From Thermococcus sp. M39 (GTDB lineage Archaea > Methanobacteriota_B > Thermococci > Thermococcales > Thermococcaceae), in NCBI RefSeq assembly GCF_012027325.1, contig NZ_SNUG01000011.1, positions 1 through 33,230 on the forward strand: 33,230 bases of DNA, read 5' to 3'. The notes beneath the pieces are model-generated. The model saw only the letters and a list, made by a program, of their open reading frames with translations. It did not search any database and was not told the DNA's origin. Shown here one piece after another: positions 1,438 to 11,397 of this stretch. A program made the position numbers and the translations under genes. How positions within the stretch are numbered: the first letter of the stretch is position 1; every line of letters starts with the position of its first letter.

Positions 1438-1446
1438 GTGAGTAAT

Positions 1447-1656
1447 ATGAAGCAAAATCTTAGAGAGGATATTATCGGTATTCTGCGTAGGGAAGGTTAT
1501 TCTACTGTTGCTATTCTTACTAGGAAGCTTAATGAGAGGGGGATTGACTGTACGAGACAAAAAGTTGAGAGAGTGCTTAGGGACCTCATCAAAGAAAACG
1601 TGATAGAGGTGTATTATATTAACGCCAATCATCGACGGCATTATCGATTAAGGTGA
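1447..1656 (+). CDS. Small winged-helix DNA-binding protein
   Basis: About 69 residues forming one winged-helix domain: helices in NLREDIIGILRREG and VAILTRKLNERGI, a recognition-type helix TRQKVERVLRDLIKENV, then a short wing with YYINANHRRHYRLR. The ATG at 1447 is preferred over GTG at 1438 because GGTGA (1437-1441) then sits five bases upstream as the ribosome-binding site. It is followed closely by a second regulator and then the surface-protein cluster, so it probably controls that cluster. The exact family is not identified. Confidence 0.7.
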   Translation: MKQNLREDIIGILRREGYSTVAILTRKLNERGIDCTRQKVERVLRDLIKENVIEVYYINANHRRHYRLR

Positions 1657-1661
1657 TGCCA

Positions 1662-2108
1662 ATGACCACCTCTGCCATGATTCTAGGGAATGATAGGAGA
1701 ATGTTAATCATCGAATACCTCCAAAAGTGCAACGGAAAAGCGGAGCTTAGGGAGCTTGTACAATACATTGCAGAAAAAGAAGGGAATACAGACAGAAAGC
1801 ACAGGAAAAGCGTTTATGTAAGCCTAATACAAACCCACATTCCAAAGATGGAGAGAGAGGGGATAATAGAATTTAAGCATGGAACTATTAAGCTCATCCA
1901 GATTCCTGAAAATGTTGATGTCTACATGGAGATTGTAAATAAAAACGACATAAGATGGGCAAGTGTTTACAGTATACTCGCACTTAGCTCAGCAGCTATG
2001 AGCTATTATGTTCAGAGCTGGGAGGGATTTATTATTTCAACAGTATTTTTGGCGTTGTCCCTTATTCAAAGGATGAAGGAGAAAAGGATTGTGAAAAGGG
2101 AAAAGTAA
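1662..2108 (+). CDS. Winged-helix regulator with two C-terminal membrane helices (DUF7344-like)
   Basis: The 148-residue protein has an N-terminal winged-helix domain (GNDRRMLIIEYLQKCNGKAE, then ELVQYIAEKE, HRKSVYVSLIQTHIPKMEREG), like the DUF7344 regulators I recall from archaea. Two C-terminal hydrophobic segments follow (WASVYSILALSSAAMSYYV and GFIISTVFLALSLI) and a basic tail. It is thus a membrane-tethered DNA-binding protein, suited to sensing envelope state. The ATG at 1662 is chosen because GGTG at 1652-1655 is correctly spaced; GTG 1653 and ATG 1656 are alternatives that overlap the upstream stop. It lies directly before the fibre genes. Family name moderately sure; topology clear. 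Confidence 0.7.
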   Translation: MTTSAMILGNDRRMLIIEYLQKCNGKAELRELVQYIAEKEGNTDRKHRKSVYVSLIQTHIPKMEREGIIEFKHGTIKLIQIPENVDVYMEIVNKNDIRWASVYSILALSSAAMSYYVQSWEGFIISTVFLALSLIQRMKEKRIVKREK

Positions 2109-2139
2109 TTACCGATTACCCTTTTGAATATTCTAATTA

Positions 2140-2148
2140 CCTATATAC
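2140..2148 (+). promoter_or_regulatory. TATA box for the surface-protein cluster
   Basis: CCTATATAC lies about 60-65 bases upstream of the ribosome-binding site GGAG (2204-2207). It implies a transcription start near 2170 and a leader of some 45 bases, separate from the regulator pair's promoter. Confidence 0.45.
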
Positions 2149-2216
2149 AACAATTGCAAAGATTCTCTTTGAAGTCCCTATTTAAGGGGGCTCCGAAAAA
2201 CAAGGAGATGAAAAAA

Positions 2217-2810
2217 GTGAAAAAGTTAGCACTTGGAATTTTCGGCCTTTTAGTGGCCTTTGGTCTCGTGCTCGGTGCGGGGGCCAATTTTAGTGATTAC
2301 AATGCAAGCAGAAGCGTCCACTGGCACATTGTCCCGGACGATGACGAGCTAATTGATTTAACACCACTGCAACCTTATGCATACATAGATAACGTAACCG
2401 GCGTTCTAGTAATTGACTTCTCAGTCAATAATCCAAACTATCCAGGATATGGAAACGGAATAAGCCCAGCAAGTGAGTACAACTTTGATGAAGTCTTTGA
2501 AGTAAGCAACGACCTTTGGGAGAACGTGACCATAGTTGTTAGGATAACCTCAAACAGTACCAATGTAGAGTTCTACGGACATGAGGGAGACGTATACGAA
2601 GTCGCAAACGGAACCATAGCCAGCTCATCAGATACAGCAGATGAGGACGTTTGTTTCGTAGTTGCACCAGGAGATGCGGTTAAGATTGGTCTTGACTTAA
2701 GCGCAGATGGCGACAGTCCAGGAGATATATGGAACGTTGCTATGAGTATAAAAGCTTACAGACTTGGCACAGAACCAACCGCTTTGGTTGGCAAGTGCGG
2801 ACAGCCGTGA
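2217..2810 (+). CDS. DUF1102-like secreted protein 1 (TasA-like fibre subunit candidate)
   Basis: The protein (about 197 residues) starts with KK, a hydrophobic segment and GAGANF, a short signal sequence with a processing motif shared with the next gene. The GTG at 2217 is chosen because GGAG is nine bases upstream, which gives an N-terminus matching the paralogue; ATG 2208 abuts the GGAG and is less likely. The mature part is beta-rich, with DDDELIDLTPLQPYA, then NNPNYPGYGNGISP and VSNDLWENV, and has several N-glycosylation sequons (NAS, NVT, NST, NGT) and two cysteines near the C-terminus. I recall archaeal bundling-pilus and TasA-type subunits with this layout and a linked SipW-like peptidase. 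The fibre role is inferred. Confidence 0.75.
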   Translation: MKKLALGIFGLLVAFGLVLGAGANFSDYNASRSVHWHIVPDDDELIDLTPLQPYAYIDNVTGVLVIDFSVNNPNYPGYGNGISPASEYNFDEVFEVSNDLWENVTIVVRITSNSTNVEFYGHEGDVYEVANGTIASSSDTADEDVCFVVAPGDAVKIGLDLSADGDSPGDIWNVAMSIKAYRLGTEPTALVGKCGQP

Positions 2811-2826
2811 TTAGGAGGTATAAAAA

Positions 2827-3363
2827 ATGAATAAACTTATCGGTTTGGCCCTACTTTTAGTGGGGATGATGTTAGCGGTTGGCGCCGGAGCCAACTTTAG
2901 GTATTATGAAGCAGACAGGGACATTATAGTTGCCATCGTTGCAGATGACAATGAACTAATTGACTTAACACCAGTACAGCCCTACGCACGCCTAAGCAAT
3001 GGGAAATTGTACATTGATATCAGCGAATATAATCCAAACAAACCAGAGTGGGGTGGACTTGGACTCAGCCCGAACACAACCTATGTCTTTGAAGAAATGT
3101 TTAATGTTAGCAACGACCTTTGGGAAAACAACCAAACGGATTTCCCAATTTGTGTAACCCTTAGTGTTTCAGGTTCGTATGATGTCAAAATATTTGCAGG
3201 CAACTACACTAGTCCAACTGCAGGTCCAGCTGCTTCAATAACGTTTACGGTATACCACGGAAGCCCAGTCCCAATTGGATTTGTATTCAACAACACAAAC
3301 ATGTCACCAGGAAGCTACCAGACACAACTTCAAATACACGCAATTGCAGGCGCATGTACATGA
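2827..3363 (+). CDS. DUF1102-like secreted protein 2 (tandem paralogue)
   Basis: This 178-residue protein is a clear tandem paralogue of the upstream gene. It shares GAGANF after the signal segment, then DDNELIDLTPVQPYA, YNPNKPEWGGLGLSP and VSNDLWENN. It has sequons NTT, NVS, NQT and NYT, and cysteines in FPICVT and at the C-terminus (AGACT). GGAGGT at 2815-2820 is a strong ribosome-binding site. It is probably secreted, processed by the signal peptidase encoded downstream and assembled with its paralogue. The hairpins after the stop codon suggest it is the last highly expressed gene of the first transcript segment. Confidence 0.75.
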   Translation: MNKLIGLALLLVGMMLAVGAGANFRYYEADRDIIVAIVADDNELIDLTPVQPYARLSNGKLYIDISEYNPNKPEWGGLGLSPNTTYVFEEMFNVSNDLWENNQTDFPICVTLSVSGSYDVKIFAGNYTSPTAGPAASITFTVYHGSPVPIGFVFNNTNMSPGSYQTQLQIHAIAGACT

Positions 3364-3369
3364 TGTGAA

Positions 3370-3420
3370 AAATCTGAAGATTTATTGAGAGCATTTGCTC
3401 TCAAATATTTTAGTTTTTTG
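3370..3420 (+). terminator. Double hairpin plus T-rich tract between fibre genes 2 and 3
   Basis: Seven bases after the stop of gene 2 comes AAATC-tgaa-GATTT (3370-3383). A perfect 8-bp hairpin follows, TTGAGAGC-attt-GCTCTCAA (3385-3404), then the T-rich stretch TATTTTAGTTTTTTG. This looks like a terminator or processing site that would leave genes 1 and 2 at a higher level than the genes after it. No second TATA box is obvious before 3438, so read-through is likely partial. Confidence 0.6.
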
Positions 3421-3437
3421 TTTGTGAGGCGATAAAA

Positions 3438-3935
3438 GTGATCAGTAAGGGAATAATATTATCTGTAGCAGTAATTTTCGTATTGTTCTTCTCAATTAGC
3501 ATTAACAAGCCAATCCCTATTTCCTATGCTCTTGAAAACGATAATGGCACATTTACTATTGAGACGCCACTCCCACCATATGCTTTTCTTTATCATGGGG
3601 GAAATTTGACAATTGATATTAGCGAGGACAATCCATTCTACCCGGGATACGGGGAAGGATTATCGAGAGATGCAATCTACAAGTTTGATGACGTTATGAA
3701 GGTAGAGAACAATGTGACCCAGACAGGAGCATCAGTCATTTGCGTAATTATTACTTCACAAATGGATGGTTTGAAGTTTTACTACTCAAACACAACACCC
3801 GAAGACAGCATTAGCTTTACATTAGGCGAATATGAGTCAGTGAACGTTGGTATCTACATCAACACCACAAATTATGCCCTTGGCGAAGTTTCTGGGAGCT
3901 TTAAGATACAAGCTTATGAAGGTGCATGTGGATGA
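3438..3935 (+). CDS. DUF1102-like protein 3, membrane-anchored variant
   Basis: The 165-residue protein has one N-terminal hydrophobic helix (IILSVAVIFVLFFSISI) and a beta-rich domain similar to the two upstream paralogues (PPYAFL, NLTIDISEDNPFYPGYGEG, YKFDDVMKVEN). It lacks the GAGANF motif; NKPIPISYA follows the helix instead. It ends with YEGACG, like the AGACT end of gene 2. The GTG start at 3438 is preceded by GAGGCGAT. Its stop overlaps the start of the signal peptidase gene (ATGA). It may be an unprocessed, membrane-held base or cap subunit; this is inference. Confidence 0.7.
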   Translation: MISKGIILSVAVIFVLFFSISINKPIPISYALENDNGTFTIETPLPPYAFLYHGGNLTIDISEDNPFYPGYGEGLSRDAIYKFDDVMKVENNVTQTGASVICVIITSQMDGLKFYYSNTTPEDSISFTLGEYESVNVGIYINTTNYALGEVSGSFKIQAYEGACG

Positions 3936-4999
3936 GGCTTCTAGAACTTCTTTTTACCTTTGTTATTGGTTTAGTTCTGATCACATCAATAGCAGGATTT
4001 ATTCTTGATAGACCTATCTTGATATCTTATGTTTATTCCGATAGTATGAGTCCAACATTAGAGAAAGGGGACTTATTCTTCATAAATCCCCTCTCAAAGG
4101 GCGATGTTAATGATATCATTGTTTTTAAAATGAACAATGAGTGGACAGTTCACAGAATCTATGTGAAAGATTTCGATGGATACATAACAAAAGGAGACAA
4201 CAATGTCGCAACTGACCAGCAAGAAGGCAAAAATCCAAAGATAACAAAGGATGCAGTAATAGGCAAAGTTATAACAATTGGAGGAGAACCCCTAAAAATA
4301 CCAAGAGCAGGAGATTACATAAGCAGCCTTTCTAAAAAAGGTTCAAACCTGTATGTTGCAATAGCATTTTTAGTTATAGGGGCAATCCTCTTAACAACCA
4401 GCAGTGAAGAGAGAAAAAGGAAAAAGAAAAGAAGAAAGTACATAAGAGTAAAATTTAAGACACTTTATGCAGTAACTGCTTCTCTAACAGTGGCAGTTTT
4501 GATCCTTTCGATGATGCTCTCATGGGGAACTTTAACTTTCAGCTATTCCTCAACCCTAGCTAGTGGTCAAAGAGAAGGCTGGTATTTGCCAGGCTCTATG
4601 TTTGAAGAAGAGCTGACATTAAAAAATAGGGCAATTTACCCATTCCTGTACTTTATTGAGCCCCAAGGAGATAGGATCGAAATTTTGAGCGAGAAGTCCT
4701 TTAAAATATCTGGAGGCAACGAAAAAAAGATAAAAGTTCAGGTAAGCGTTCCGGAAGATACAAGAGTCTACGGAGAAAAGATTAATGTCTATGCATATTT
4801 GCCAATCTTGCCTGAAAGAATCATAACAGAACTTTACTACAAAAGCCCGTACTTGCCATTCATTGCATACATCGCAGAAGCATCGTTCTTCTTAACACTC
4901 CTTTACTTTGCGGTGGGAGCTGGAAGCGAAGACATAATCAAGTATAGAGTTCACCGCTCAAAGATTTTTGACAAACTTAGGGAGAGTGTTGGATTATGA
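3932..4999 (+). CDS. SipW-type signal peptidase I fused to an extra membrane-flanked domain
   Basis: In this 355-residue protein an N-terminal membrane helix precedes the S26B signature: SDSMSPTLEKGD with catalytic Ser38, then WTVHRIY with His74 replacing the bacterial Lys, and TKGDNN with Asp89. This Ser-His form is the ER/SipW type. Two more membrane helices (about 140-157 and 177-198, with a very basic linker EERKRKKKRRKY between) lead to a beta-rich, probably external domain (about 200-300) and a final helix near 310-325. Ordinary archaeal signal peptidases end near the first 160 residues. ATG 3932 forms an ATGA overlap with the upstream stop. It probably processes the DUF1102-like subunits. 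Confidence 0.88.
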   Translation: MRLLELLFTFVIGLVLITSIAGFILDRPILISYVYSDSMSPTLEKGDLFFINPLSKGDVNDIIVFKMNNEWTVHRIYVKDFDGYITKGDNNVATDQQEGKNPKITKDAVIGKVITIGGEPLKIPRAGDYISSLSKKGSNLYVAIAFLVIGAILLTTSSEERKRKKKRRKYIRVKFKTLYAVTASLTVAVLILSMMLSWGTLTFSYSSTLASGQREGWYLPGSMFEEELTLKNRAIYPFLYFIEPQGDRIEILSEKSFKISGGNEKKIKVQVSVPEDTRVYGEKINVYAYLPILPERIITELYYKSPYLPFIAYIAEASFFLTLLYFAVGAGSEDIIKYRVHRSKIFDKLRESVGL

Positions 5000-5925
5000 A
5001 ATGGACTGCAGTGTTTTTAATATTGCTAGCGAGTTCTATGATACTCATTGGCTCCAGCGGAAATTTCAGAAATTATGAAAGCCAAAGAGGCGTGTGGGTA
5101 AACATTGCCCAAGGAAATGAGTCATACATTGCTTACTTCTGTACTGTAAGTGGATATTCAAATGTCGTGACAGTTGAGCAAGGGGAATCCTTAAGCTTTG
5201 ATGCCTTAACCATAAAAAATCAGCTTGGAGAAACATTGGAAGCATGGATTGAAGGAGATTACTCAGGCCTACCTTCTGGAGTAAACGTTAACCTTGAAAG
5301 TGGGTCGGTTATTCTGTTTGACCTAGAGGAATATTCCTTTGAAGGAAATGTAAGTGCAGCTAGTGATGTACCAGTAGGGAGCTACGAGGTTCCAATTATG
5401 CTTTATGGGGATTGGGATAATGGAGATGCTGAGATAAGCGTCTGCCCATTGAAAATTAATGTGATTGAGCCCCGAGTGGTGCTAACAAAAATTCTCATAA
5501 GTGGGAACACAACTGTGCCAATAAAAACAAACCAAAGCTGGACTATGAGAATAGAAATAACCAACCACGGTCCAGAGGAAGAATTTACAATTAAAGACGT
5601 CATTCCAGCAGAATTTGAAGTTGACTTAAACCAAACTTCAGCAACAGACGGGAACTATACCTTTGTGAAGCAAGGAGGAGGAAATATGGGCTCCATTCAC
5701 ATGACATGGGTAGTAACTGTCGGGCAAGGTGAAAGTGAACACATTGACATAACGATTTATACAAAACTCAATCCTGCAGGACAACAAGAATTCACTGAAC
5801 CAGGTTTCTATAATTTGAATGATGGTGCAGAACTTGTTGGATATGACATAAAGACACCAGCAATTGTTGTGGAGGCAGTTGAAGATGAAGACGACCAGTG
5901 TTGCCATAACTGTAACTGTGGTTAG
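4996..5925 (+). CDS. Large secreted DUF1102-like protein with Ig-like domain and cysteine tail
   Basis: The 309-residue protein starts with a signal segment and GSSGNFRNYESQRGVWV, aligning with GAGANFRYYEADRDIIV of gene 2, so it probably uses the same peptidase. Two beta-sandwich regions follow, one near 55-150 and one near 165-275. The second resembles a DUF11/CARDB-type adhesive repeat (RIEITNHGPEEEFTIKDVIP). The protein ends in an acidic cysteine cluster, EDEDDQCCHNCNCG. It overlaps the signal peptidase gene by ATGA, suggesting translational coupling. It could be a tip adhesin or minor fibre subunit; the tail could bind metal or form disulfides. Confidence 0.72.
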   Translation: MKWTAVFLILLASSMILIGSSGNFRNYESQRGVWVNIAQGNESYIAYFCTVSGYSNVVTVEQGESLSFDALTIKNQLGETLEAWIEGDYSGLPSGVNVNLESGSVILFDLEEYSFEGNVSAASDVPVGSYEVPIMLYGDWDNGDAEISVCPLKINVIEPRVVLTKILISGNTTVPIKTNQSWTMRIEITNHGPEEEFTIKDVIPAEFEVDLNQTSATDGNYTFVKQGGGNMGSIHMTWVVTVGQGESEHIDITIYTKLNPAGQQEFTEPGFYNLNDGAELVGYDIKTPAIVVEAVEDEDDQCCHNCNCG

Positions 5926-5979
5926 TGCCTTCCATTTTTTCATTTTTTTGAACTAATTATTGAAATGGAGGTTTCAAAG

Positions 5980-6996
5980 GTGAAGAAATTTAATTTAGAG
6001 ATAATAGAGAACATCAACTGGAAAAAAGTAAGTTTAGCAATTCTGCTGATAGCATTCCTGTTCTTCTCTGCTTATAGTGTATTGGCATTTCAAAGAGAGC
6101 CCATAACTAGAACCACTAGAACTGTGGGGAGCTACACCCAAAAAGGAGTTTTTCAGCATAAAGCGTTCTTTTCAAATACATCACTTTATGGAAATGTAAA
6201 AAGCATGAAATATTACCCCAAAGACATAACCGAGTCAATATCAGGGGTTTATGTTTATACTTTCACGCCTGGAAAGGACATAACTGGAAAATACAAGCTT
6301 ACTATAGTTACAACGTATTACGTCTCAAAAGGTAAAGAAAAAATCATTCTTTGGGAGGAGACGCTCGTAGAGAGTGAAGGAGAGCTCGAAAACGGAATAA
6401 TGGGAGAAGCAATAAGCTTTAACTTAGCTGATCTGAACAAGAGGACAGAAGAAATCAAGAAGGGTCTTGGCATTAAGAGATTTTCAAAGGACACCAAGAT
6501 CATAGTTCAAGTTTCAGCCAGAGGAAATGTTAATGGAAAGAAAGTTTACGAGAAGTTTGAGCAGACAATTAATATGGTTGTGGATTCAACAAACGGGCTC
6601 ATATATTTCACGAACGAAGAAGCAGAGATAAAGAACAACTTAGTTGAGACAAATGTCAAGACAAACTTCTTGAGTCTTCTCGGGAAGCCAGTGAGCGTCA
6701 GCACAGCGAGAAAAGTATTTCCGCTTTTGGCGTTCCTAAGCACACTCCCAGTCTTCGGAATGATTTACACAGCAAAGGCAAACGCTCCAAAGGATAGACT
6801 CAAAGACTTGAGAAGATACATAATTGAAGGCGTTCCAAGTGATGTGGATAAGAAAATCACGCTCGCTACAGAAGATGATCTAAAGAAGACCTTTGAACTG
6901 ATTGATAAGCCTATACTGCACTACCAAGAAGATGATAGCGAAGTTTATGCAATTGTAGATGATGGAGTCCTCTACGAATACAGAAGGGAGTTTTAG
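5980..6996 (+). CDS. DUF5305-like membrane protein at the end of the fibre cluster
   Basis: The 338-residue protein has an N-terminal membrane helix (about 18-37), a large external beta-rich domain with TVGSYTQKGVFQHKAFF and VYTFTPGKDITGKYKLTIV, a second membrane helix near 245-262 and a cytoplasmic tail of about 75 residues ending YAIVDDGVLYEYRREF. This two-helix, sandwich layout fits the DUF5305 family I recall next to archaeal signal peptidases. GTG 5980 is preferred because GGAGG at 5967-5971 is eight bases upstream; ATG 5965 is the alternative. It may be an assembly factor or anchor for the fibres. A T-rich run at 5936-5949 separates it from the previous gene. Confidence 0.7.
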   Translation: MKKFNLEIIENINWKKVSLAILLIAFLFFSAYSVLAFQREPITRTTRTVGSYTQKGVFQHKAFFSNTSLYGNVKSMKYYPKDITESISGVYVYTFTPGKDITGKYKLTIVTTYYVSKGKEKIILWEETLVESEGELENGIMGEAISFNLADLNKRTEEIKKGLGIKRFSKDTKIIVQVSARGNVNGKKVYEKFEQTINMVVDSTNGLIYFTNEEAEIKNNLVETNVKTNFLSLLGKPVSVSTARKVFPLLAFLSTLPVFGMIYTAKANAPKDRLKDLRRYIIEGVPSDVDKKITLATEDDLKKTFELIDKPILHYQEDDSEVYAIVDDGVLYEYRREF

Positions 6997-7001
6997 GACT
7001 A

Positions 7002-7667
7002 TTAATGACCCAGGTCTTCGTTTAAGATTTCTTCAAACTTTTTTATCTCAATCTTCTCACTTTCTGCAAGTTCTTGGGGTATATCAACAACGTATTTTAC
7101 CTTATCGATTACGGCTAAATCTGAAGTTGCAACGATTTCAAATTTTTTAAGCTCAAAATCTACAGCATTTACAGTTTCTGCTGCTCCAGAAAGACCAACT
7201 CTTTCAATAATTTCATTTGTAAGCTTTGCCACCTCACCGCTTTTGCTGACAGGCTTGTCATAGAGAAAGATAACCCTTTTTGGGTTAAACTTAGATAAGA
7301 ACTTCAAGAGAAAAAATAGTATTTCTCCAGTTTTTTCACTAACTCTATATCCCCTCTGATACTTCAAATCTCTAACAAAGCCATCTTCGCAGAGTATCGC
7401 TTTTCCTTCGAGAACAGATTCTAAAGTTATTAAAACATTGAATCCATCAACAGCCAGGATTTTGCCATTTACGAAGTTGATTGGCTTCCTCTTCTTTTTT
7501 CTATATCCTATTTCTTTTTCACTAAAAACACATCTAGCCAAAAGGTGTCTGTCTTCCTTTTTCAATTTGTAGTGATTAGCTACAAAATTCAGAGCAACAC
7601 TTTTTCTATACCCTCTGTTGAGCAAATACTTCAAATCCAAATATGCCTCAAAAAGGGGAGAGGGCAT
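7002..7667 (-). CDS. DUF434 family protein
   Basis: The 221-residue soluble protein has an N-terminal helical part (YLDLKYLLNRGYRKSVALNFVANHY) and a core with AVDGFNVLITLESVL and LCEDGFVRD, matching my memory of the DUF434 (plus DUF5616) family of archaea. A third part has FLYDKPVSKSGEVAKL and AVDFELKK. The aspartates in VDGFN, EDGF and LYDKP could form an acidic, nuclease- or phosphatase-like site, but this is speculation. Its start overlaps the stop of the HD-domain gene by one base (TAATG), so the two are translated together and may share a substrate. Confidence 0.75.
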   Translation of the reverse strand: MPSPLFEAYLDLKYLLNRGYRKSVALNFVANHYKLKKEDRHLLARCVFSEKEIGYRKKKRKPINFVNGKILAVDGFNVLITLESVLEGKAILCEDGFVRDLKYQRGYRVSEKTGEILFFLLKFLSKFNPKRVIFLYDKPVSKSGEVAKLTNEIIERVGLSGAAETVNAVDFELKKFEIVATSDLAVIDKVKYVVDIPQELAESEKIEIKKFEEILNEDLGH

Positions 7668-8437
7668 TAAACCACCTTCTCCAGCAACTGATTCTCTGCA
7701 TGAATTCTAATCCTAACTTTTCCGCTCAACAGAGAGTTCTTAACTTTTTTAGTCAGAATTTCGTCAACTTGAAAGATCCCAGAGAGGTGCTTCATTTTGA
7801 CGTCTATAATTATTGGTGTCCTACTATCGCCTTCGCGTATTTCAACTTTCTCAATTGCAAGTGCTGAAACTGAGTGGATATCGACCTTATCTTTCTTGTG
7901 AACAAGCCTCGAACGGCCTTGCTCCATATCACAGCCATCAGCAACCGTAACGCAGCTTCCTTCAATTGTTGTGCACTGCGTTGCTTCGTCATGAGTATAG
8001 ATTGCATTTAATGTTAAAGCCTTTAAAAGCAGCCAGTCTGTTTTTTCAAACTCCTTAGCAAGCTCATCTATGATAGGTTCTGCTAAAATCGTGCTGAAAA
8101 GATAGTGGTTTTCACGGTGAATCATGTTTCCGATGTCATGGAACAAAGCACCAAATGCAACTATGAACTTGCTCCACTCAAAGGGCTTGCCGAGTTTTTC
8201 TGCTGTTGTTTGAACACCAAATTTTTTGAGTATTTTTAAGATCTCCAATGCTCTTCTAGCAGTTAAAAGAACATGAATGCTCCCATGGTCATTGAACTGA
8301 TAAACATTAAGAACAATGTAGTTTGTGGTGTTGAAGTAGTATTCATACTTCTCAAACGTTCGTTTAAACATCTCAAACAGCTGATCATTCTCCATAAGGG
8401 ATTTAATCTCACTCAAAAGCTGGCTTTTTTCGTACAT
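7667..8437 (-). CDS. HD-domain phosphohydrolase
   Basis: The 256-residue protein carries the HD-domain metal ligands: His51 in NDHGSIHV, His100-Asp101 in LFHDIGN, further histidines in IHRENHY, His149 in YTHDEA and Asp167 in VADGCDMEQGR. The fold is that of HD-type phosphohydrolases; a nucleotide or cyclic-nucleotide substrate is likely but not shown. ATG 8437 is chosen because GGTGAT lies five bases upstream; TTG 8443 is the alternative. It is the first gene of a coupled pair with the DUF434 gene and faces away from the lipoprotein gene across a 166-base A+T-rich spacer. Confidence 0.85.
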   Translation of the reverse strand: MYEKSQLLSEIKSLMENDQLFEMFKRTFEKYEYYFNTTNYIVLNVYQFNDHGSIHVLLTARRALEILKILKKFGVQTTAEKLGKPFEWSKFIVAFGALFHDIGNMIHRENHYLFSTILAEPIIDELAKEFEKTDWLLLKALTLNAIYTHDEATQCTTIEGSCVTVADGCDMEQGRSRLVHKKDKVDIHSVSALAIEKVEIREGDSRTPIIIDVKMKHLSGIFQVDEILTKKVKNSLLSGKVRIRIHAENQLLEKVV

Positions 8438-9688: not shown

Positions 9689-10327
9689 ATGTTTGGAGAA
9701 TATGAGCTAAGAACAAGATTCATCAAAGTTTTTGACAAAAAGATTCACCTCACTGAAGAAACTGATGAAATTGTTGTTTATCGGAGAGATGAGATTAAAA
9801 GGATAATAAAGAAAGCTGACAGACTCAAAATTCTGCCCTCTCCAGCTATAGGTTATGGAGTCAAACTTCTAATGGTCAAGCTGAATGAACCGATAGCTGT
9901 CCCGCCCAAAGATGCAATTTCTGGATACATAGAGGTGCCGATAGAAGTTGATGTAAAAGTAGGAGATCTCACAATAGATCACTTCATCCTTGGAAAAGAG
10001 AAATATGCCCTTTATGGAACTGTAGATGTTGGTGTTATTACAAGATACCACAAAAGCAAATTTTATGTGAAAGAGCCCGATTCCGTGGGAATAGCCAAGG
10101 TCATTATCAGTAACCCTTCCAAGGAGTGGAAACTGATAGAGAGGATAGTTTTCCCGATAAAGGACAGCGTGATGTTTTATACCAAAGATAAAGCGTATTA
10201 CCCGCTTTTAATAGTTACTCTCAAGACTGCTGTTCCTGAAGTTAACAACACTGGGAAACCTCCGAAAGATGGATTAATCCCAACTAGGGAAGCATTATCA
10301 TTACCCAATTTCTTGATGAGGTGGTGA
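9689..10327 (+). CDS. DUF432 family protein
   Basis: The 212-residue protein is mostly beta-strand with no signal or membrane segment. It starts MFGEYELRTRFIKVFDKKIHL and contains GYGVKLLMVKLNEPIAVPP and HFILGKEKYALYGTVDVG, features I associate with DUF432. It lies immediately upstream of the mechanosensitive channel: its stop at 10325-10327 overlaps the GGTGGTG ribosome-binding site of that gene. This arrangement is recalled from other Thermococcales and suggests a cytoplasmic partner or modulator of the channel; the function is unproven. Confidence 0.72.
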   Translation: MFGEYELRTRFIKVFDKKIHLTEETDEIVVYRRDEIKRIIKKADRLKILPSPAIGYGVKLLMVKLNEPIAVPPKDAISGYIEVPIEVDVKVGDLTIDHFILGKEKYALYGTVDVGVITRYHKSKFYVKEPDSVGIAKVIISNPSKEWKLIERIVFPIKDSVMFYTKDKAYYPLLIVTLKTAVPEVNNTGKPPKDGLIPTREALSLPNFLMRW

Positions 10328-10329
10328 AA

Positions 10330-11397
10330 ATGGAGATTCCTATTAACACAACATCCCTGTTTTCCTCACTTCCTCTAGCCAACATAACTTTAACCTCGAT
10401 TATAAAGGCTGTTCTAATTTTAGCCATCGGCTTAATATTGGCGAACATTTTCAAAAAATGGATTATCAAGCTTTCAAGAGTAACGGAGTATGTATGGCTA
10501 ATCAATGAGGAAACCGCCGACATAGTTAACAAGCTGATCATGATAGTTGCCCTCATCTATGCTTTAGATACCCTTGGGATTCTCTCAATTGAAATAGCTG
10601 GAACAACGCTGAGCAACATAATAGCAGCTTCTCTCGTCTTCTACTTCTTATATTTGATTGCAAAGAAATCAAAGGACTATCTTTTAATGAGCGGGGCAAA
10701 GAAGGGCAATCTGCCAGAGGTTCAGCTTAAAGCTAAGCTCTTCTACTACTCTCTCCTCCTCATTGCACTCCTCATATCACTCAACATAGCTGGCTTCACT
10801 GGAAAGCTCACGACCCTAATGGTTGCTGGAGGAATAACTGGTATAGTCTTGGGTTTTTCTGCTCAAACTGTAATAGCAAACTTCATCTCCGGCATATTTA
10901 TGTACTTTGATAAACCATTGAAGATAGGTGATCCTGTTGAAGTTGCTGGCTATTCTGGAGTTGTCAATGACATAAGGATTCTCTCTACGAGGATAAGGAC
11001 TTGGGACGGAACTTTAGTCAGAATTCCAAATGAGAAAATATTTAACAGTGAGATAAGGAATCTACAGAAATATCCAGCGAGAAGGGTTGACGTGCTCATA
11101 GGAATAGCGTACAAAGAGGATATAAGCAGAGCTATTGAAGTTATAAAGAAAACTCTAGAGGAGATGCCCCTTGTTCTGGCTGAACCAGAGCCAGCAGTGT
11201 ATGTTAATGAGCTAGCAGAAAGCAGCGTTAACATATATGTCAAAGCATGGGCTCCAAGTGAGAAGTGGTTTGACGTGAGAAGTACCGTCTTGCAGAAGAT
11301 TAAGGAAGCTCTAGAAAGAGAGGGTATTGAAATCCCATTCCCACAGCGTGTCAACTGGTTCGCAGAGGAGCTTAGAGTAAAAGTTGAGAAAGAGTAA
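10330..11397 (+). CDS. MscS-family mechanosensitive ion channel
   Basis: The 355-residue protein has four to five membrane helices in its first 170 residues. The pore-lining MscS helix follows, with the Gly/Ala pattern VAGGITGIVLGFSAQTVIANF, then the conserved FDKPLKIGDPVEVAGYSGVV at the start of the beta domain and IRTWDGTLVRIPN. The C-terminal alpha/beta domain ends with PFPQRVNWF, typical of the family. It releases solutes on osmotic down-shock. ATG 10330 is preferred because GGTGGTG is just upstream; GTG 10321 is the alternative. It forms an operon with DUF432. The tRNA-Tyr promoter starts right at its stop codon. Confidence 0.93.
   Translation: MEIPINTTSLFSSLPLANITLTSIIKAVLILAIGLILANIFKKWIIKLSRVTEYVWLINEETADIVNKLIMIVALIYALDTLGILSIEIAGTTLSNIIAASLVFYFLYLIAKKSKDYLLMSGAKKGNLPEVQLKAKLFYYSLLLIALLISLNIAGFTGKLTTLMVAGGITGIVLGFSAQTVIANFISGIFMYFDKPLKIGDPVEVAGYSGVVNDIRILSTRIRTWDGTLVRIPNEKIFNSEIRNLQKYPARRVDVLIGIAYKEDISRAIEVIKKTLEEMPLVLAEPEPAVYVNELAESSVNIYVKAWAPSEKWFDVRSTVLQKIKEALEREGIEIPFPQRVNWFAEELRVKVEKE

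Follow-up and report, generated by a model that had tools for sequence, protein, structure and literature searches.

The locus studied here raises the question of what an archaeal cell might make from eight same-direction genes, three of which encode DUF1102 proteins and one a signal peptidase, and how their expression might be controlled. The genes lie on the plus strand between positions 1438 and 6996 of the window, by which we mean the whole stretch of 33,230 nucleotides that was analysed, from a Thermococcus genome of 2.28 Mb and Thermococcales type (Table 1). An earlier note on this DNA had described a TasA-like fibre cluster; its positions for all eight genes were borne out, and Pfam confirmed its family calls, namely three DUF1102-like proteins, which score 181.1, 181.5 and 119.8 bits and pass the gathering cut-off of 22.2, and one DUF5305-like protein (E 7e-11). 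From sequence comparison and structural models, the best explanation of the whole is probably that the locus makes, processes and regulates an extracellular donor-strand fibre.

Table 1. Features of the cluster, in positions of the window
Feature	Position	Strand	Remarks
Small winged-helix (wHTH) protein	1438..1656	+	72 aa, GTG start; weak wHTH matches
DUF7344 winged-helix protein, candidate pilin-promoter regulator	1653..2108	+	PF24035, E 5e-19; two C-terminal hydrophobic segments
Palindromic candidate operator AGTAATTACCGATTACC	2104..2120	.	consensus GGTAAY-N5-RTTACC
TATA box ctatatac of the pilin promoter	2141..2148	+	conserved with operator spacing
DUF1102a, proposed fibre subunit	2217..2810	+	PF06510, E 1.6e-53; signal segment ends GAGA, then NFSDYNASR
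DUF1102b, proposed fibre subunit	2827..3363	+	PF06510, E 1.2e-53; predicted mature N-terminus NFRYYEADR, from base 2893
Stem-loop TTGAGAGC-ATTT-GCTCTCAA	3385..3404	+	3' of the second pilin gene
DUF1102c, proposed end subunit (cap, tip or anchor)	3438..3935	+	PF06510, E 1.3e-34; without the N-terminal motif
SipW/SEC11-type Ser-His signal peptidase	3926..4999	+	four TM segments; extra ectodomain at about residues 200-310; ATG 3932 is an alternative start
Two-domain DUF11-like protein (DUF11p)	4996..5925	+	DUF1102-like N-terminal domain with GSSGNFRNYESQR; DUF11-like second domain; Cys-rich tail
DUF5305 membrane protein, final cluster gene	5965..6996	+	PF17231, 42.3 bits against a cut-off of 29; two TM segments flank a 200-residue ectodomain

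The genes lie head to tail, and the ATGA overlaps that had been described for them occur at only about three junctions, between the small wHTH and DUF7344 genes (-4), DUF1102c and the peptidase, and the peptidase and DUF11p (-4). Elsewhere there are gaps of 108, 16, 74 and 39 bp, of which the first contains the TATA box and the third the stem-loop. For DUF1102a, comparison with a related locus (L034) makes GTG 2217 the most likely start, rather than that of the longer open reading frame. Neither Pfam nor NCBIfam recognised a type IV pilin-type subunit or assembly ATPase among the eight cluster proteins. Further downstream, at 10321-11397, the window carries a gene for an MscS-type mechanosensitive channel, which the MscS models of NCBIfam match with E values down to 6e-37 but short of the cut-offs.

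DUF1102 is present in 87 of 94 Thermococcales genomes, covering all six genera, and the cluster-type peptidase in 85 of the 94, nearly always as a single copy. That breadth, together with the repetition of the gene order in 20 other Thermococcales regions and in the Archaeoglobus and Geoglobus loci examined, excludes a chance arrangement. DUF1102c and the small wHTH are optional members, the latter missing from L048, L049, L063 and the Archaeoglobi. The large DUF11-like protein is shortened or unmatched in the same three regions, with DUF1102a and DUF1102b kept, and in L063 (G008) it was not recognised. In one genome (G029), none of DUF7344, the pilins, the peptidase, DUF11p and DUF5305 is whole any more, the genes having decayed through stops or being cut down to fragments. 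Two further genomes that are nearly complete (G026 and G041) have lost DUF1102, the peptidase and DUF5305 together. Such joint loss and decay is as expected of one functional unit and, with synteny, gives good support to the claim that the cluster has its own regulators and signal peptidase. The genes that flank the decayed cluster (L107, G029:C1:1034000-1048000) look intact. In another genome (G081; L106, G081:C1:971000-986000), all three DUF1102 genes are deleted between DUF7344 and the peptidase, leaving the peptidase, DUF11p and DUF5305 intact; these three may therefore serve another client.

Trees of the peptidase and of DUF1102b conflict with each other, in that L038 joins the window by its peptidase but L044, L059 and L061 by its pilin, and the Archaeoglobus genes fall among Thermococcales sequences. 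An exchange of pilin genes between lineages is therefore probable. In G074, the peptidase gene is split over two frames (L109:4272-5338), the pilins resemble the other lineage's type and the signal segment of DUF1102a is chimeric.

Two elements in the gaps between genes point to how the cluster might be controlled. The first is the palindrome GGTAAY-N5-RTTACC upstream of DUF1102a, found about 37-38 bp from the TATA box in about 45 distinct loci. Its exact core pattern has 0-7 matches per genome (16 genomes, both strands), and in three genomes it occurs only at the cluster. At least 10 of 12 positions are kept in nearly all loci with DUF7344, including those that have no small wHTH, and the score is at background in five loci without DUF7344, which form one clade and so count as one event. 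Because the site is conserved with DUF7344 and at background without it, DUF7344 is the likely binder, and the position of the operator upstream of the TATA box suggests activation. The small wHTH was ruled out as the partner, since clusters that lack it keep the operator. A further palindrome, TATAGTAT...ATACTATA (1408-1435), upstream of the small wHTH gene, was dropped, being only loosely conserved within the genus, and no clear link was found for a second operator-like palindrome, GTAATGACAGATTACC (L111:4019-4034; G000:C3:274018), which recurs within the genus near a biotin-ligase-like gene. In L036, about 5 kb of sequence (3098-8369) separate the pair of regulators from the pilin genes, and the operator has stayed with the latter. 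The pilin leader of the window (2149-2216, about 60 nt), like that of several relatives, contains a small hairpin of the GTCCC...GGGAC type before the ribosome site. As for the membrane tether that had been ascribed to one regulator, it is plausible for the DUF7344 proteins of Thermococcales. In the protein of the window it is weak, with a best 19-residue hydropathy of 1.54, and from the Geoglobus versions (105-108 aa) it is absent.

The second element, almost confined to this locus, is a stem of 5-8 bp with an NTTT loop, immediately 3' of the second pilin gene. It is found in 37 of 48 distinct Thermococcales loci against 2.6% of shuffles, a comparison for which the loop was picked after inspection of the sequences and to which covariation and genome-wide pattern counts are preferable as evidence; a test of the stem that ignores the loop is weak (at least 6 pairs in 11 of 48). 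Over 27 distinct versions, 135 of 135 base pairs are kept, with 16 double changes relative to the commonest pair. Intercistronic hairpins of a similar kind are known from pilus operons. By ending or protecting the pilin message, the hairpin would favour subunits over the peptidase and minor parts, and the two elements together suggest dedicated regulation with a pilin-rich expression ratio. A more ordinary interpretation, which would be compatible with a fibre, is that the stem-loop is a general terminator hairpin and the operator a generic activator site; intergenic hairpins are common, and some genomes have a relaxed form of the operator pattern at a few further sites as well. We consider this rather unlikely, given that, of 8 Thermococcus genomes, 7 have GGGGCMTTTGCCCC at the cluster site, with a single occurrence elsewhere, that the double changes in the stem leave no broken pair, and that the operator fades to background where DUF7344 is lacking.

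The peptidase has a Pfam peptidase S24/S26 domain, passes the NCBIfam model sigpep_I_arch (TIGR02228; 58.8 against a cut-off of 51.85) and matches the SipW model below its cut-off (E 1.2e-6). SipW of Bacillus is a Ser-His signal peptidase of the ER type. The cluster enzyme belongs to the same type, since S40, H76 and D91 are invariant and the closest solved relatives of its profile are human SEC11A and SEC11C (2e-13), which bears out the SipW-type assignment made in the earlier note. Between TM3 and TM4 lies an ectodomain of about 110 residues that is conserved as far as the haloarchaea, and for which searches returned no known domain and no PDB sequence relative.

The motif F-x2-[YFV]-x3-R stands behind a hydrophobic signal segment in every DUF1102a (31 of 31) and DUF1102b (31 of 31) and in all but one of 28 large proteins (27 of 28); in the lone exception the start is misplaced. 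It occurs in 0 of 19 orthologues of the subunit whose gene immediately precedes that of the peptidase, of which the profiles label 13 as c and 6 as b. The signal segment ending GAGANF/GSSGNF, which had been attributed to the subunits at large, is shared by DUF1102a, DUF1102b and the large protein; the third DUF1102 lacks it. In a donor-strand fibre such as that of TasA, the donor strand is the stretch that cleavage by the signal peptidase sets free (PMC10151520, PMC9674648). If the freed N-terminus is likewise a donor strand here, a third subunit without the motif would be acceptor-only, which suggests that DUF1102c is an end piece, whether cap, tip or anchor. It cannot be essential everywhere, because many clusters are without it.

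An AlphaFold model of mature DUF1102b, built with 34 aligned sequences, is a beta-sandwich (mean pLDDT 84.7, pTM 0.80) in which residues 1-7 are the sole segment with pLDDT below 50, as would be expected of an unpaired donor strand. When the model was compared with PDB chains by Foldseek, four matches had E<=1e-3, three of them FimA entries (wild type and variants), with 2M5G at the top (E 1.3e-4), and the other, at rank 2, the archaeal bundling pilin AbpA (7UEG; E 2.3e-4, probability 1.00, TM 0.43-0.48). The PDB matches are modest (TM-scores 0.41-0.48, rmsd 6-10 A), and beta-sandwich proteins often look alike; with TM-scores below 0.5, they count as support rather than proof. Because the only matches at that level are FimA and AbpA, donor-strand assembly is the best reading. 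No TasA entry is among the 50 listed fold matches, neither Pfam nor NCBIfam gave a match to a TasA or camelysin sequence model at E<=1, and phmmer and profile searches found no PDB sequence relative of DUF1102, AbpA included, beyond chance. The structural comparison that the earlier note had proposed thus spoke for its interpretation, with AbpA as second-best PDB match; the fold supports a cluster that works like TasA or AbpA, whereas the claim that it is a TasA is unsupported by any sequence model. It is improbable that the DUF1102 proteins instead make up a coat of the cell surface, or a glycoprotein layer associated with the S-layer, with no filament and a peptidase that merely matures them: every subunit has 5-6 sequons, and surface layers often contain general beta-sandwich folds, but the subunits are small (about 150 residues) and bear a conserved free N-terminal motif, donor-strand pilins are their only strong fold matches, and their relatives are named fimbrial by NCBI.

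The large protein, which had been called related to the subunits, is indeed so, as profile-profile comparison links its N-terminal part to DUF1102 (probability 97%, E 1.4e-10); its model consists of a DUF1102-like domain and a second, Ig-like domain. It has no PDB sequence relative, and its Foldseek list is generic Ig-like (integrins, antigen I/II), for which reason the matches were dropped as a guide to function beyond two Ig-like domains. A Cys/His-rich tail (CCHNCNCG, window 5899-5922), also present in close relatives, might bind metal or form cross-links. Elsewhere, DUF1102 is fused to a VWA/integrin-beta-like and a NEW3 domain (L076:7695-9260) and, in haloarchaea, to a beta-helix (L083:10932-12539) or to PGF-pre-PGF and CARDB (L083:13187-14692); the fusions with VWA/integrin-like, beta-helix or CARDB domains suggest adhesive subunits. 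That the cluster encodes monomeric adhesion or substrate-binding proteins, secreted or membrane-bound, with the DUF11-like protein as effector and DUF1102 as accessory, is very improbable, for while the large protein matches a two-domain adhesin and an Ig-like stalk and is retained in G081 without any DUF1102, no other part of the cluster is repeated as often or conserved as well as the DUF1102 copies, and DUF1102a and DUF1102b outlast an intact large protein in L048, L049 and L063.

In the donor-strand fibre that we propose, DUF1102a and DUF1102b would be the main subunits, exported by Sec and cut after GAGA by the dedicated peptidase, and the freed N-terminus (NF-x2-Y-x3-R...) would be a beta-strand donated to the groove of the subunit that follows. 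DUF1102c, a DUF1102 domain with no donor segment, would cap or anchor one end, and the two-domain DUF11-like protein, which combines the motif with an extra Ig-like domain, may be a minor subunit with a probable role in adhesion. Assembly or anchoring could fall to two membrane-held factors, DUF5305 and the peptidase ectodomain. Binding of DUF7344 to its site upstream of the TATA box would control the pilin promoter, and the hairpin would ensure that subunits outnumber the peptidase and minor parts. If this model holds, the Thermococcales, for which genetic tools exist, have a near-universal, undescribed surface fibre, and testable roles can be assigned to the peptidase ectodomain and to DUF1102, DUF7344 and DUF5305, all families of "unknown function". 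The nearly single-target candidate operator and the RNA hairpin are both open to simple experiments. A literature search returned nothing relevant on DUF1102, Taf or Thermococcales with TasA, so that the system is poorly described, as had been stated, for Thermococcales in the literature searched, but NCBI already names related haloarchaeal proteins fimbrial (TafA, TafC, TafE and TafF).

Among known systems, the type 1 pilin FimA of the chaperone-usher pathway is the best fold match of DUF1102b, but no PapD-like chaperone or usher is recognised in the cluster, which belongs to a single-membrane cell. For the thread of Sulfolobus acidocaldarius (Saci_0406), we know of no dedicated SipW cluster. 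It is a donor-strand fibre of exported, glycosylated subunits (PMC9715654), as is proposed for the subunits of our cluster; it is absent from the 50 fold matches listed for DUF1102b. The AbpA bundling pili of Pyrobaculum calidifontis also consist of a small exported subunit from a hyperthermophilic archaeon and share the beta-sandwich predicted here, but DUF1102 has no detectable sequence similarity to AbpA. TasA fibres of Bacillus are donor-strand-exchanged (PMC9674648, PMC10151520), and the tapA-sipW-tasA operon resembles the cluster in combining a dedicated ER-type peptidase with subunits cut by it, a cut that is predicted in our case. It differs in its regulators and in the size of its peptidase, the cluster enzyme having 357 aa against the 189 positions of the SipW model, more TM segments and the additional ectodomain, and the cluster contains no recognised TapA homologue or match to the TasA/camelysin models.

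The haloarchaeal Taf loci (TafA NF052520, TafC NF052521, TafE NF052522, TafF NF052523) share DUF7344, several DUF1102-like (TafA/E-like) subunits with the motif AF(T/S)SVxAxR, a TafF-like subunit without it, a long SipW-type peptidase (380-440 residues) and, in part of the loci, a syntenic DUF5305; they differ in that their subunits often have large extra domains and their genes lie on both strands. Haloarchaeal subunits match the Taf models, named fimbrial by NCBIfam, strongly in some loci (TafA 225 bits, TafF 594 bits), whereas the window proteins reach E 0.0018-0.0026 against TafA/E, far below the cut-offs of 190/155 bits (18 bits against 190), and 16 of 34 relatives match TafA weakly, at best with 1.5e-6. 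The cluster is a divergent relative of haloarchaeal Taf and, by sequence, a member of neither TasA nor AbpA, and one gene layout would, if our model is right, link archaeal bundling pili, Taf and Bacillus TasA. The new content is the regulatory elements, operator and stem-loop, and the donor-less subunit. We tentatively suggest, as a possibility that falls somewhat short of an even chance, a donor-strand fibre class of Thermococcales, Archaeoglobi and haloarchaea that would be distinguished by DUF7344 and its conserved operator, a locus-specific, ratio-setting stem-loop, a donor-less end subunit, a peptidase with a built-in domain for assembly outside the cell, and major subunits that have moved from lineage to lineage.
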